From Hyalangium gracile (GTDB lineage: Bacteria; Myxococcota; Myxococcia; Myxococcales; Myxococcaceae): 64,000 bases of DNA. Positions 1,092-7,324 of the stretch are shown here, in pieces. The position numbers were made by a program, and so were the translations under genes. Positions within the stretch are counted from its first letter, which is position 1, and every line of letters begins with the position of its first letter. The notes under the pieces were generated by a model. That model had not been told where the DNA came from. It ran no database searches and was given only the letters and a program-made list of their open reading frames with translations. The DNA lies in contig NZ_JAHXBG010000040.1 of the NCBI RefSeq assembly GCF_020103725.1, forward strand, positions 1 to 64,000, read 5' to 3'.

Positions 1092-1177
1092 CGCACCAGG
1101 GTAGCAGCGACCGTAGGGACGGCAACACCCGGTGACGAGAATGGGCCCCAGGCCGCGCATTGAGGTATGTGTGGGGA

Positions 1178-2008
1178 ATGGCGCGATGCACGTTCCTGGT
1201 CTTGATGGCGTTTCTGTCGGGGTGTGCCACCACGCGGCTGGCGGGCGCGGATCTGGACCGCGTGACGCAGCCGGCCTTCATCTCCCGGATCGAGGATGGC
1301 GCCGGGCCCAAGGCCCGCGTCTTCCGCGAGGATGACGCGTACGGCGAGAAGCTGAAGAAGCTCGAGCCGAAGGAGGCCGATCGCCGGCTGCAGGCGAAGC
1401 TGAGCAAGGCGGTGACGCGCTTCGAGATCTCCGAGCGCCTGCGGGTGAGCACGATCAACCAGCTGCCGCGGGAGCGGCCCTGGACGAACATCGTGGATCC
1501 GGCGCGAGTGGCCTCGGCGCTGGAGAGCTTCCTGGTGGAGGAGGTACCGGCGAACGCGCCGGACTACGATCTGCTCACGCCGCTGGGCTCGGATGTCGTG
1601 GTGGAGTTCGTCATCCAGGACTACGGCATGCGCAGCGACAAGGGGCACGCGGGCGCGTACCTGAAGGGCTACGGGCGCATGTTCCGGCTGGATGGCCGCT
1701 CCGAGCAGTGGCGCCGACCGTTCGAGGTGGACCAGCTCGAGGCGGGGGCTCCGCACCTGGATCCGTTCAGGGTGGGCAAGGATCCGGACCTGTTCCGGCA
1801 GGCGATCACGTCGCTGCTGGACGGCGTGGCGGAGCAGTTCGCGCAGGATCTGACGCCCAAGGATCGCCGGGGAGGGCCGCCGCTGCCGGAGGGGCCGGAG
1901 CTGACGGCGCCGGACAGCACGAACCGCACCGGTCGTGAGAACCAGCAGCCGCCGCCGAAGCCGGAGCCGGAGCTGCCCGCGGGCGAGCTGCCGGATCCGG
2001 ATCCCTGA
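1178..2008 (+). CDS. lipoprotein of unknown function
   Basis: The protein has 276 residues. The start ATG at 1178 gives a compact lipoprotein signal (MARCTFLVLMAFLSGCATT) with lipobox LSGC; a TTG at 1160 would add six residues. A GTGGGGA stretch before the ATG can serve as ribosome-binding site. The mature part begins with a charged segment and a central region (SDVVVEFVIQDYGMRSDKG) that reads as an outer-membrane or periplasmic lipoprotein fold. The C-terminus is a Pro/Glu-rich tail. I do not recognise a named family. It lies divergent from the T2SSE_N-type gene and convergent with the AhpD-like gene, whose stop is only 12 bp away. Confidence 0.75.
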   Translation: MARCTFLVLMAFLSGCATTRLAGADLDRVTQPAFISRIEDGAGPKARVFREDDAYGEKLKKLEPKEADRRLQAKLSKAVTRFEISERLRVSTINQLPRERPWTNIVDPARVASALESFLVEEVPANAPDYDLLTPLGSDVVVEFVIQDYGMRSDKGHAGAYLKGYGRMFRLDGRSEQWRRPFEVDQLEAGAPHLDPFRVGKDPDLFRQAITSLLDGVAEQFAQDLTPKDRRGGPPLPEGPELTAPDSTNRTGRENQQPPPKPEPELPAGELPDPDP

Positions 2009-2020
2009 GCGGGCCGTCCT

Positions 2021-2635
2021 TCAGCCCGGCTTTGCCGCGGGAGCGTCGACGTAGCCGCTCTGGGCCAGCCGCACGCCGTTGCGGGCATAGATCTCGGCGG
2101 AGTGGTGGCCCACGCCGTTGGCGTCGATCCAGCGGTTGTAGAAGTTGAAGAGCGCGCAGACGTTGACGGCGTCGTAGATGGCCTCGTCCGACCAGCCCAC
2201 GGCCTTGAGGGCATCCACGTCCTCCTGGCGGATCCTCGCGGGGGCCAGGTTGACCTTCTCGATATAGGTGAACAGAGCCTTCTCGGCCTCGGAGATGGGG
2301 GCCGTGTGGTGGTTCTCGAGGACGGCTTCGACCTTCTTCACATCACCCAGCAGATTCGCCGCGACCGCGGCGTGGGAGTGAAGTCAAAACAAGCAGTGAT
2401 TGCCGCGGGAGGTGAAGGCGGCGATCAGCTCGCGCATCCCCGCGGGCAGGGGAGAAGGGCCGCGCATGATACCCTCGGTGAGGGCGGACAGCGGGTCGGT
2501 CACCTGCGGCTTGAACGCGAACAGGTGCCAGATGCGAGGGAAGGGCCTGCCCGTCTCGCGGCACCGCTGGATGAGCGAGGAGTAGTGGCCGACGCCTTGA
2601 TGCGCCTCGACGTCCTTCAGGAACATCGGGTCCAT
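2021..2635 (-). CDS. selenocysteine-containing AhpD-like (CMD family) peroxidase-related protein, CxxU
   Basis: Two same-frame open stretches (2635-2387 and 2383-2021) are joined by one in-frame TGA at 2386-2384. Read through, they give 204 residues that match carboxymuconolactone decarboxylase/AhpD 'peroxidase-related' proteins. The family motif NxCxxCxxxH appears as N79-H-C81-L-F-U84-L-H-S-H88, so the TGA falls exactly at the second redox cysteine. Upstream are the family's MRELIAAF helix and, after the motif, AAVAANLLGDV and the C-terminal helices. The start ATG at 2635 has GGGAG seven bases upstream, and the gene follows the permease stop by 16 bp, so the two are probably co-transcribed. 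A nested stem-loop with a GGUC loop follows the TGA directly. Family knowledge: AhpD-like proteins reduce peroxides or disulfides through this CxxC; CxxU versions have been reported in bacterial selenoprotein surveys. The alternative is a nonsense mutation, but both halves show full conservation. Confidence 0.85.
2336..2383 (-). promoter_or_regulatory. candidate bacterial SECIS element
   Basis: On the mRNA sense, starting at the base after the UGA, three nested helices can form. CUUCAC pairs with GUGAAG (outer, 6 bp), CCCA with UGGG (middle), and CGCCGC with GCGGCG (inner, 6 bp). They close a GGUC loop. The loop starts 17 nt after the UGA, close to the spacing in E. coli fdhF, whose SelB-binding loop also contains GGUC. 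A bulged U in the stem, which matters in E. coli, is not obvious here. Confidence 0.75.
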
Positions 2636-2651
2636 GATGATGATCTCCCGA

Positions 2652-3899
2652 TCAGAAGAGCGCATGCTCGGCAAGGAGCACCGCGAGCCCCACGATGAAG
2701 CTCAAGAGCGTCACCGGTACGCCGATCCGCAGGTAGTCCATGAAGGACATCTTCACCTTGTCGCGCGCGGCCTCGAACACTATCAGGTTGGCCACGCTCC
2801 CGATCAAGGTCAGGTTCCCCGCCAGCGTCGAGCACAGCGCCAGCACGTGCCACCCCAGCTCCGGGTTCTGAAGCGTCGGCACCCACGTGCGCGCCAGCAT
2901 CACGAACGGCACGTTGCTGAACAGGTTCGACGCCACCAGCGTCAGCGCCGCGAACCCCAGCGTCTCCCGCCACGGCGGCCCCGCCATCAGCGGAGCGAAG
3001 ATCGTCCGGATCTCCTCCGCCCAGCCGTGCTTGTTCACCCCGTACACCACGATGAACAGGCTGGCGAAGAACAGCAGCAGCACGAAGTCCACCCGCTCCA
3101 TGATGGAGCGCGGCTCGCGGCGAGCCATGGCCATCACCACCGCGGCTCCCGTCAGCGCGCTCCAGCTCATGGGGAAGCCCAGGAAGAAGGCCACCACCAC
3201 CGCCACCATCACCGCCAGCGTCAGCGCCAGCAGCGGCCGATCCACCGGAGGCGGAGGCGGCTGCGGATCGAAGCGCTTCGCGGGCAGCTCCTTGCGGAAC
3301 AGGTACAGCAGCATCGCGATCACGATGCCCGTGGACAGAATCGCCGGCAGCGCCATGTACGCGGCGAAGCTCGCGTAGGACAGCTTCGAGGCCCCCTGGA
3401 TGAGCATGTTCTGCGGGTTGCCCGTGAAGGTGGCCACCGAGCCGCTGTTCGAGCCCATGCACACCGCCAGCAGGTACGGCACCGGAGGCAGGCGAGCGTC
3501 CTCCACCACGGCCAGCACCAGCGGTGTCAGCATCAGGCACACCGTGTCATTGACGAGGAAGGCGGACAGCAGCGCGCTGATGCCCGTCACCGCCGCCAGC
3601 AGCAGCCGAGGCGTGTGGGCCATACGCACCGTGAAGGCCCCCGCCGTCCGGAAGAAGGCCGCCTGCGCCAGGTACGCCGCCAGCAGCATCATCCCCAGCA
3701 ACAGGATGATCGTGTCCAGGTCCACCGCGTGGCGGGAGGGATCCTCGCTGTGGTTGAAGACCTCGGCCGGGGTGACCACCCCCAGCACCACCATGAGCAC
3801 GGCGCCCAGCAGCGCGCCGCCCGGGCGGTCCAGCTTGAGGAAGGGCAGGCGCGCCCCGGCGATGAAGACGTACGTCAGCAGGAAGATGGCGAGGGCCAC
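2652..3899 (-). CDS. ArsB/NhaD-type anion or Na+/H+ permease
   Basis: An integral membrane protein of about 415 residues with around 11 hydrophobic segments. It begins with ALAIFLLTYVFIAGARLPF, the typical start of the ion transporter superfamily (ArsB/NhaD/CitMHS, 'SLC13 family'). The conserved half-sites LVNDTVCLMLTPLVL and GSNSGSVATFTGNPQNMLI, and the pseudo-repeat FSNVPFVMLARTWVP with STLAGNLTLIGSVANLIV, are all present. The substrate cannot be read from sequence: arsenite, dicarboxylate, sulfate or Na+/H+ are all possible. I chose the GTG at 3899; an in-frame TTG at 3920 would add seven residues. It is divergent from rtcA and leads a likely two-gene unit with the AhpD-like selenoprotein gene. 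A shared stress or redox role is possible but not shown. Confidence 0.8.
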   Translation of the reverse strand: MALAIFLLTYVFIAGARLPFLKLDRPGGALLGAVLMVVLGVVTPAEVFNHSEDPSRHAVDLDTIILLLGMMLLAAYLAQAAFFRTAGAFTVRMAHTPRLLLAAVTGISALLSAFLVNDTVCLMLTPLVLAVVEDARLPPVPYLLAVCMGSNSGSVATFTGNPQNMLIQGASKLSYASFAAYMALPAILSTGIVIAMLLYLFRKELPAKRFDPQPPPPPVDRPLLALTLAVMVAVVVAFFLGFPMSWSALTGAAVVMAMARREPRSIMERVDFVLLLFFASLFIVVYGVNKHGWAEEIRTIFAPLMAGPPWRETLGFAALTLVASNLFSNVPFVMLARTWVPTLQNPELGWHVLALCSTLAGNLTLIGSVANLIVFEAARDKVKMSFMDYLRIGVPVTLLSFIVGLAVLLAEHALF

Positions 3900-3968
3900 G
3901 AAGCGCGGACAGTACCCCAAGCGCTTCTGCTACGCTGCATTGCTCATGCATCGCGGCACAGGGACACC

Positions 3969-5045
3969 ATGACCGGCACCAGCCGGCCCGAAGAGGGGCC
4001 GGTGCAGCTCGATGGCAGCGAAGGCGAGGGGGGAGGGCAGATCCTCCGCTCGGCGCTCTCCCTGTCGCTCATCACCGGCCGGCCCTTCCACATCACCCGC
4101 CTGCGCCAGCGCCGGGATCCCTCGGGCCTGCGCCCCCAGCACCTGGCCTGCGTGCGCGGCGCCGAGGCCCTCAGCTCCAGCACCAGCGAGGGGGCCACCG
4201 TGGGGGCCTCGGAGCTCTCCTTCACCCCGGGCCCCGTGCGCCCAGGCGACTACCTGCTGGAGGTGGGCACCGCCGGCAGCACCCCGCTGCTCTTCCAGTG
4301 CCTCTTCTTCCCCCTGGCTCTGGCCGGAGGCGGGCAGCTCACGCTGCGCGGAGGCACCCACCTGCCGCACAGCCCCAGCTACCACTACCTCGTCAACGTC
4401 TGGCTCCCGGTGATGCACGCCTACGGGCTGCACGCCTCCCTGAGCCTCACGCACGCGGGCTTCTACCCGGAGGGCGGCGGCGAGTTCCAGGCGGAGCTCT
4501 CCGCTCCGGCCGAGCCCCCGCGGCTGGTGGATCTGCCCGCGCGCGGCACGCTGCAGGACATCACCGTCAGCTCCTTCGTGGGCGGGCTGCCCTTCTCCAT
4601 CGCCGATCGCCAGTCCCGCGCCGCCGAGGCCGCGCTGCGCGAGCGGGGGCTCTACTGCCACTCGCAGAACCGGGCGCTGCCCGTGACGCGCTCGGCGGGC
4701 ACCGTCACCTTCATCCTGGCGGAGTTCGAGAACACCTTCGCGGGCTTCACCGCGCTCGGAGAGCGGGGACGGCCGGCGGAGGAGGTGGGGCGCGAGGCCG
4801 CCGAGGCGGTGGCTCGCTTCATGGAGTCCGCCGGCGCCATCGACGAGCACCTGGGGGATCAGCTCCTGCTCCCGGCGGCGCTGCTGGCCGCGGGGAGGCT
4901 GGGCCCGTCCACGCCAGGCACCACGCGCTTCACGGCCTCACGGGTGACGGAGCACCTGACGACGCATGCCCGCGTCATCGAGCGCTTCCTGCCCGTGAAG
5001 GTAGCCGTCGAGCCGGGCGGCGCGGTGGAGGTCCGCCCGGCCTGA
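3969..5045 (+). CDS. rtcA: RNA 3'-terminal phosphate cyclase
   Basis: The protein has 358 residues, the usual length for RtcA, which converts an RNA 3'-phosphate to a 2',3'-cyclic phosphate through a covalent histidyl-AMP. The family signature GSEGEGGGQILRSAL is at residues 16-30. The middle carries FYPEGGGEF, and the adenylated histidine is expected in EHLGDQLLLPAAL, near H294. The start ATG at 3969 has AGGGA close upstream; the longer frame open from 2634 is the shadow of the opposite-strand permease. No rtcB ligase or rtcR activator lies in the window, so the gene stands alone. An upstream TACGCT about 35 bases before the ATG could be the -10 of its promoter. Confidence 0.93.
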   Translation: MTGTSRPEEGPVQLDGSEGEGGGQILRSALSLSLITGRPFHITRLRQRRDPSGLRPQHLACVRGAEALSSSTSEGATVGASELSFTPGPVRPGDYLLEVGTAGSTPLLFQCLFFPLALAGGGQLTLRGGTHLPHSPSYHYLVNVWLPVMHAYGLHASLSLTHAGFYPEGGGEFQAELSAPAEPPRLVDLPARGTLQDITVSSFVGGLPFSIADRQSRAAEAALRERGLYCHSQNRALPVTRSAGTVTFILAEFENTFAGFTALGERGRPAEEVGREAAEAVARFMESAGAIDEHLGDQLLLPAALLAAGRLGPSTPGTTRFTASRVTEHLTTHARVIERFLPVKVAVEPGGAVEVRPA

Positions 5046-5399: not shown

Positions 5400-5578
5400 G
5401 GCCAGCCATGCTACCACGGGTAGGCCAGCGGAGAGCCACCCCAGGCTATGGGAAGCCCGCGGCGAGGGCTCCCGGAGCGGGCAGGGGAGCTTCCGGAGCC
5501 TCTTCAGAGCCCCTCCGGAGCCTCCATCACCCCGCGCACATCCCCGTGGAACAAGGCTTGCGTCCGCCCCGGCCGTCC

Positions 5579-7324
5579 ATGACGCTCGGGGACGACTCCT
5601 TCCCTCGGGCCTCCATGCTGCGCCTCGTCTTCGTCGCCATCGCCAACCTGCTGCTGCTGGTGCGGACCCTGCTCGGGCTGCCGTTCCGCCTGCTGGCCTC
5701 GCGACACCGCCCCACCTACGTCCGCTTCCGGCTCGCCGGAGATCCGCCCTACCGCGAGCAGCGAAAGAGCCGCTTCAAGCTGGGCGGCTCGAGCCCGGAG
5801 CCCGGCACCGTCTCCTCACTGGAGTCCTTCCAGGAGGCGCTCGGGCTGCTGGCCCGGGACGCGCACGTGAAGGGCATCCTCCTGGAGCTCGAGGGGCTGG
5901 AGGTCGCCTCCGCGAAGAAGGACGTGCTGGTGAAGCTGCTCACGGACTTCCGGGCGGCGGGCAAGCGCGTGGTGGGCTGGGCCGTGAGCCTGGACAACCT
6001 GGGCTACCAGGTGCTGTGCGCCGCGGACGAGGTGCTCCTGGCGCCCGCGGGCCGGCTCGAGCTGGTGGGCTATGCCGCCGAGGCCACCGCGCTGGGCGAG
6101 GGCCTCTCCCGGGTGGGCATCCAGGCCCACTTCGTGCGGCGCGGCGACTACAAGACGGCCCCGGAGCTGTTCACCCACGCCCACGTCTCGGACATCCAGC
6201 GGCAGACGCTCGAGGCCTTCCTCGACGAGCGCTACGCGGACCTGGTGGACACGGTGGCCCGGGGCCGCAAGAAGACGCCCGAGGAGGTCCGGGCGCTCAT
6301 CGACTCGGGGCCCTACAGCGCCCAGCGCGCGGTGGCGGCGGGGCTGGTGGATGGGGTCTGCGGCGAGGCCGACCTGCCGGCACGGCTGGACGAGCGCCGT
6401 CGCCAGGAGAAGGACCCGGACGACGCCGAGGAGCCGATCGAGCCGATGTCCCACTGGTTCTCCACCCAGCCCTTCCCCCAGGTGAAGTGGAGGCCGATGC
6501 GGCGGCGGCCGAAGCTCGGGCTGGTGAAGGTGTCGGGGATGATCATCCCGGGGAAGGGCTCCGGAGGCATGGGCCCGAAGACGGCCGGCGCGGAGTCGGT
6601 GGTGAAGGCGCTGCGCCAGGCGGGGCGGGACAAGCGGGCCAAGGCGGTGGTGCTCTACATCGACAGCCCGGGCGGCTCGGCGCTGGCCTCGGAGCTGATC
6701 CTGGAGGCCGTGCAGCGCGTGGGGCGCAAGAAGCCGGTGATCGCCTTCGTGGATCAGGTCTGCGCCAGCGGCGGGTACATGGCCGCGCTGGGAGCCAAGG
6801 AGATCTGGACGACGCCGCACGCCATCATCGGCTCCATCGGCGTCTTCGCCGGGAAGTTCGAGGCCTCCGGGCTGATGGAGCGCCTGGGCGTGCGCAGGAC
6901 GATCATCGCCCGCGGGGAGAACTCGGGCATCTTCTCGACGTCCCGGGGCTTCACCCCGCACGAGCGCGCCTCGCTCGAGGCGGAGGTGGAGGAGACGTAC
7001 CAGGCCTTCCTGGCCCACGTGGCCAAGGCGCGCGGCCGGACCAAGGAGGAGATCCACGAGCGCGCCGAGGGCCGTGTGTACTCGGGCACCCGGGCGCTGG
7101 CCGCGGGGCTGGTGGACCGCGCCGGCAGCTTCGAGGAGGCCTGCCGCCACGCCATGGATCTGGCCAAGGTACCGGCGGGGAAGTTCGAGCTCGCCCTCTA
7201 CAGCGTGGGAGAGCGCCGCCGCTCGCTGCTCCAGCTGCTGCTGAGCATGTCGAGCACCCACCTGTACGCGCTCTGTCCAACCTCCTGGTCCCTCGGCCGG
7301 TCCTCGATGCGCCGCGACGGGTAG
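5579..7324 (+). CDS. sppA: signal peptide peptidase SppA, 67K type
   Basis: The protein has about 581 residues with an N-terminal membrane anchor (RLVFVAIANLLLLVRTLLGL) and two S49 ClpP-like halves. The catalytic lysine is expected in VRRGDYKTAPELF of the first half. The nucleophile serine is in VDQVCASGGYMAALG of the second half, the standard split Lys/Ser dyad of long SppA. VLYIDSPGGSALASE is the neighbouring conserved strand and loop. The enzyme degrades remnant signal peptides in the inner membrane. The start is ATG 5579 or ATG 5615 just before the anchor; the frame open back to 5248 is overextended. The C-terminal ~25 residues after LLLSMSSTHL look non-conserved. Confidence 0.88.
   Translation: MTLGDDSFPRASMLRLVFVAIANLLLLVRTLLGLPFRLLASRHRPTYVRFRLAGDPPYREQRKSRFKLGGSSPEPGTVSSLESFQEALGLLARDAHVKGILLELEGLEVASAKKDVLVKLLTDFRAAGKRVVGWAVSLDNLGYQVLCAADEVLLAPAGRLELVGYAAEATALGEGLSRVGIQAHFVRRGDYKTAPELFTHAHVSDIQRQTLEAFLDERYADLVDTVARGRKKTPEEVRALIDSGPYSAQRAVAAGLVDGVCGEADLPARLDERRRQEKDPDDAEEPIEPMSHWFSTQPFPQVKWRPMRRRPKLGLVKVSGMIIPGKGSGGMGPKTAGAESVVKALRQAGRDKRAKAVVLYIDSPGGSALASELILEAVQRVGRKKPVIAFVDQVCASGGYMAALGAKEIWTTPHAIIGSIGVFAGKFEASGLMERLGVRRTIIARGENSGIFSTSRGFTPHERASLEAEVEETYQAFLAHVAKARGRTKEEIHERAEGRVYSGTRALAAGLVDRAGSFEEACRHAMDLAKVPAGKFELALYSVGERRRSLLQLLLSMSSTHLYALCPTSWSLGRSSMRRDG

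Follow-up and report, generated by a model that had tools for sequence, protein, structure and literature searches.

Known AhpD-like selenoproteins and their relatives

AhpD-like proteins with a CxxU motif appeared as a new selenoprotein family, with 27 sequences, in the Sargasso Sea survey of 2005 (PMC1088965); a genome survey of 2006 recorded an AhpD-like selenoprotein, as COG2128, in two sequences (PMC1794560), and the family tables of 2022 and 2026 list it as COG2128/TIGR01926 (PMC9312934, PMC13188914). The original prediction on the gene described here had stated that selenocysteine (Sec) versions of AhpD-like proteins were noted in earlier surveys, and these four papers bear it out. Earlier descriptions of the family drew on marine metagenomes and a small number of genomes. 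Among open-licence papers, a restriction by which absence proves little, none was found joining selenoproteins, AhpD and myxobacteria, and the AhpD-like family was not found in the open-licence literature on selenoproteins with Acidobacteria and Solibacter.

The gene lies in a window (the whole stretch of DNA that was analysed) of 64,000 nucleotides from Hyalangium gracile. It is like the AhpD-like selenoproteins (TIGR01926/COG2128 YciW) in HMM family, in the CxxU motif with the predicted Sec at its second position and in the SECIS-type hairpin downstream, so that it has the features of a family listed as selenoprotein since 2005, and the kind of protein is already known. Fold and active-site pattern are common to the Cys forms DR_1765 (6k40), 2oyo, 2pfx and 3c1l, which carry CxxC rather than CxxU and for that reason need no SECIS. 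Mycobacterium tuberculosis AhpD (1gu9, 1knc), for which the roles of the motif residues are known, has the CxxCxxxH motif in common and likewise carries a Glu 12 residues ahead of its first Cys, although its sequence is distant and the whole-chain structural match is weak (ranks 43 and 46, E 0.3-0.4). Two further Sec-containing groups of the same superfamily, the AhpD-related CFYUT selenoprotein (NF041238; 35.1 bits, cut-off 175) and the YciW-related (seleno)protein (NF053654; 27.1 bits, cut-off 310), were ruled out as homes for the protein by scores far below their cut-offs, and a search for a dedicated NCBIfam seleno-model of this AhpD-like group gave zero models above cut-off.

A reading frame interrupted by a single TGA

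The features of the gene are the following.

2021..2635, minus strand: predicted selenoprotein gene, AhpD-like/peroxidase-related (TIGR01926), 204 residues with Sec at residue 84 (read-through translation, Pfam and NCBIfam profiles, orthologue alignment)
2384..2386, minus strand: in-frame UGA, predicted Sec84, position 2 of the CxxC/U redox motif (translation; kept in relatives)
2393..2395, minus strand: Cys81, putative partner (resolving) Cys of the CxxU motif (translation, alignment)
2357..2372, minus strand: predicted upper hairpin of a bacterial-type SECIS, nt 15-30 counted with the U of UGA as 1, with 7 pairs and a GU loop at nt 22-23 (covariation)

The frame opens with an ATG at 2635 and closes with a TGA at 2023-2021, and its sole in-frame TGA, at 2386-2384, is codon 84 in the redox motif N79-H-C81-L-F-U84-L-H-S-H88. 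Two profiles span this codon, namely TIGR01926 (peroxidase-related enzyme, AhpD superfamily) at 117.3 bits against a cut-off of 81.8 over residues 20-171, and Pfam CMD PF02627 at 35.9 bits against a cut-off of 23 over residues 43-121. The original prediction of one 204-residue AhpD/CMD frame broken just by the TGA is thereby confirmed, as is the position of the TGA at the second Cys of CxxC (C81-L-F-U84-xxx-H88), and the similarity claimed for either side of it is seen in orthologues, with which both halves align. It had also been anticipated that a standard gene caller would split the gene, and the mechanical list of open reading frames does contain two pieces, one of 96 aa at 2384-2674, which starts from a TTG further upstream, and one of 106 aa at 2021-2341.

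Despite its apparent break by a stop, the gene is very probably functional and codes for a Sec-bearing AhpD-like protein. It came through all the computational checks for a selenoprotein gene, and we put at about 0.95 the probability that it encodes a Sec-containing AhpD-like thiol/selenol oxidoreductase decoded via SelB and the hairpin, and at about 0.95 to 0.97 the probability that the product is a Sec protein.

Fold, active site and proposed mechanism

The AlphaFold model of the protein is all-helical, with a mean pLDDT of 85.7, and its top relatives in the PDB by structure and sequence profile are the peroxidase-related proteins 2oyo, 6k40, 3c1l, 2prr and 2pfx. As modelled, fold and active-site residues match those of peroxidase-related CxxC proteins such as DR_1765, and the conserved proton-relay set is present (E69, C81, predicted U84 and H88). 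The structure 6k40 is that of the Deinococcus radiodurans AhpD-like protein; loss of DR_1765 leads to H2O2 sensitivity, and the protein with both CxxC cysteines mutated complements much more weakly (PMC8945050).

In the mechanism that we propose, SelB and Sec-tRNA-Sec would decode the UGA at codon 84, aided by the hairpin just downstream. Sec84 would take the place of the second CxxC Cys of AhpD and be paired with Cys81, while Glu69 and His88 would occupy the superfamily's proton-relay positions. The selenolate at residue 84 would attack peroxide or another oxidant, and Cys81 would resolve the resulting selenenic acid, forming a selenenylsulfide that a cellular thiol donor would then reduce, as lipoyl systems do for mycobacterial AhpD. 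The most likely role is the detoxification of peroxide or other oxidants, which we consider probable.

It is possible, albeit rather unlikely, that a Sec protein of this same fold is no peroxidase, and acts instead as a reductive dehalogenase or another selenol nucleophile, as in debromination by Bmp8, or as a disulfide reductase that supplies a peroxiredoxin, as in the mycobacterial AhpD-AhpC pair. Such a role is kept in view because the debrominase Bmp8 (6ohi/6ohj), described as dehalogenating (PMC7918430), shares the fold and came up in the fold and profile searches; mycobacterial AhpD, for its part, passes electrons to AhpC (PMC8945050). The peroxidase-related group (2pfx, 6k40, 3c1l) is, however, far closer to the protein than Bmp8 is (1e-30 versus 2e-7), and the neighbouring genes are not conserved and lend no support to a special pathway.

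Genomic neighbourhood

Two genes flank the Sec gene.

2652..3920, minus strand: CitMHS/ArsB-type ion transporter gene (PF03600 222.8 bits, PF02040 57.7 bits)
1160..2008, plus strand: putative lipoprotein gene of no known family, convergent neighbour (list of open reading frames, relatives' loci)

The transporter gene lies upstream on the same strand and its stop is 16 bases before the ATG of the Sec gene. This linkage was seen only in H. gracile (G000) and in G006 and G020, where the gene order is as in the window, with some 700 extra bases in G006. In the close relative G002 the transporter and lipoprotein genes are about 35 bases apart and the Sec gene is absent (G002:C156:9747-9786, L191; equivalent to 2009-2652 of the window), in G022 and G028 the two genes are adjacent and the Sec gene is elsewhere in the genome, and in G013 the Sec gene is likewise at another place. 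Since the flanking genes adjoin without it in G002, G022 and G028, the Sec gene does not belong to a fixed operon and is instead a lone gene whose place varies between genomes, gained, lost or moved singly. It may have been lost in G002 or gained in the lineage of the window. Beyond close relatives, no conserved operon partner was found in the myxobacterial and Acidobacteriota loci compared; in many of the latter an unrelated transporter-like gene follows, and the myxobacterial loci differ. The neighbours give no reading of the function of the Sec protein. The window also contains a gene for an RNA 3'-terminal phosphate cyclase (RtcA-type, PF01137 223 bits) at 3990-5042 (plus strand), near the Sec gene, and one for a peptidase of family S49 (SppA-type) at 5408-7324 (plus strand).

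The patchy presence of the gene, which was found in only two of the seven genomes of the genus searched, would suit a once-genuine Sec gene now decaying in this strain, which we regard as very improbable: no damage is seen in the protein, the hairpin or the start region, and the G006 orthologue is 84% identical to the protein of the window, with no other stop.

Conservation of the TGA codon

The 80 best loci among GTDB genome contigs have TGA at codon 84 in 78 cases, mostly in Myxococcota and Acidobacteriota, including Hyalangium, Archangium, Corallococcus, Myxococcus and many Acidobacteriota MAGs; a few further TGA loci are from MAGs labelled Planctomycetota, Verrucomicrobiota, Cyanobacteria and Proteobacteria, labels that may be wrong. 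A search of 195 genomes of the phylum gave exactly one TGA and zero other stops in each of the 40 best myxobacterial matches (E <= 5e-87), and a first search of 59 genomes gave one TGA in all 11 best matches (the gene of the window counted among them), the first seven of which have identities of 57-100%. One strain of Myxococcus xanthus, AM003, carries the orthologue (L056), and in locus L110 the codon at the Sec site is TGA. In a set of 128 read-through sequences chosen by the motif C..U...H, a Glu, which is outside that motif and corresponds to Glu69 of the proton-relay set, stands 15 residues before the Sec in all 127 sequences reaching that far.

These counts (78/80 and 40/40) uphold the claim that the TGA is more than a chance nonsense hit, and the possibility that the TGA region is simply degraded in homologues proved not to be the case, as the region is kept intact and is followed by a hairpin that covaries. 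A nonsense mutation or sequencing error splitting an ordinary CxxC AhpD gene, which the break made by a standard ORF caller at the TGA might suggest, is thus already refuted, since independent genomes share the feature: over 100 relatives from several phyla have this TGA at the corresponding active-site codon, together with synonymous sites that are frozen and a hairpin that covaries. It is given practically no weight.

The hairpin downstream of the UGA

The hairpin is formed by nt 15-20 pairing with nt 25-30 and nt 21 with nt 24, which leaves the GU loop at 22-23; a hairpin directly downstream of the UGA, with a G in its small apical loop, is as expected of a SECIS. An Rfam scan of the 64-kb window at gathering thresholds gave zero RNA family matches, none supporting the hairpin, and covariation was used to test it. 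All seven pairs are formed in 86 of 93 distinct orthologue sequences, and two-sided pair changes number 40 in this set against a shuffled mean of 12 +/- 2.4, with a maximum of 19 in 1000 shuffles; an earlier count with 12 sequences has little power and the 93-sequence count is the one used. The loop-closing pair swaps G-C (59 sequences) for A-U (30; other, 4), and, because shuffling ignores how the sequences are related, we also counted switches on the protein tree, where each side of this pair switches about 15 times. Codons +4 to +9, which carry the hairpin, have a synonymous entropy of 0.39 of expectation, versus 0.92 elsewhere (p 6e-5). The folding energy of the 48-nt stretch of the window itself is only modestly better than that of shuffles (z -1.84), and the case for the RNA is accordingly built on covariation and codon constraint.

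In Escherichia coli fdhF the upper stem-loop comprises nt 15-31 and its loop contains G23 and U24 (PMC8659212). The bulged U17 of that element has no clear counterpart in the AhpD-like hairpin, whose nt 17 is a C paired with G28, and hence the details of SECIS recognition probably differ from those of fdhF; the bulged U17 belongs to the E. coli element (PMC8659212) and need not define all bacterial SECIS.

Selenocysteine machinery of the genome

All four genes that were to be looked for under the original prediction (selA, selB, selC and selD) were found in the genome of H. gracile (11.7 Mb, 81 contigs): tRNA-Sec (selC; 71.6 bits, anticodon TCA, the same tRNA being called by ARAGORN), SelB (284.9 bits plus the C-terminal part in the same frame), SelA (577 bits) and SelD (377 bits, at G000:C7:46327-47256, L044). 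The 64-kb window contains no tRNA genes. The SelD gene, too, is interrupted by an in-frame TGA, at the position usual for SelD (HCAGUAAK), and a hairpin 3' of it, CGCAGGUCUUGCG, read by eye, has GG at nt 36-37 and a GGUC loop at about nt 36-39, SelD being a second predicted selenoprotein of the genome. From the machinery genes and the Sec-type TGA in SelD it follows that the decoding system is present in the host, along with one or more other predicted selenoproteins. In the first search of relatives, SelA was above cut-off in 12 of the 12 genomes bearing the TGA form; the association of SelA absence with absence of the gene was in the right direction and not significant (Fisher p 0.10).

Some bacterial lineages read TGA as Trp, yet such a reading, or plain suppression of the stop, has next to no probability here, since the position aligns with Cys in relatives, TGA is also the final stop of the gene, and the genome offers the Sec machinery and the gene a SECIS-like hairpin.

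Sec and Cys forms

Homologues with Cys at the TGA position, another check called for at the outset, were found in L127, in L074, in CxxC paralogues and in the CxxC crystal structures. In a protein tree of 123 rows, the large clade holding the protein of the window has 105 rows, 103 of them with Sec. Nested in it are L127 (CEFC) and L074 (TPFC), with Cys at the Sec position and a broken hairpin; both branches are long and their exact places in the tree are unsure. In the Cys forms the match to the hairpin is poorer, with 3-6 of the seven pairs. The L074 orthologue (L074:3588-4193) has Thr at the place of the partner Cys, a one-thiol form, and has lost the hairpin. The CxxC paralogues (six rows) are on a separate branch, and one or two of them are found near the Sec gene or its Cys counterpart in three Acidobacteriota loci (L109, L127 and L100, at about 3.5-6.6 kb; in L127 the neighbour is the Cys counterpart, not a CxxU gene).

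Most myxobacterial rows are in one supported clade (97/95), within which two Acidobacteria MAG rows are nested that could be due to transfer or mis-binning. A second, more distant Sec group (CRFU), of about 33% identity, is found in other genomes of the same family (L025, L026, L027 and L028); its hairpin has G-U in place of C-G.

We favour, with fair confidence, the view that these genes are a distinct AhpD-like selenoprotein orthologue group centred on Myxococcaceae and Acidobacteriota, with Sec and not Cys as the default, kept over large protein divergence as a single gene at different chromosomal places, with rare Cys forms accompanied by SECIS loss, and with a SECIS loop of two bases, GU, whose closing pair covaries.

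What this work adds to the family is a large set of AhpD-like selenoproteins in myxobacteria and acidobacteria, soil bacteria in which Sec has been kept where Cys would be the cheaper choice. The more than 90 distinct aligned sequences offer an unusually clean covariation view of a bacterial SECIS. Moreover, because ORF callers cut the gene in two, a conserved redox enzyme has likely been missed or split in the annotations of many soil bacteria, those of Myxococcus, Corallococcus and Archangium species likely among them.
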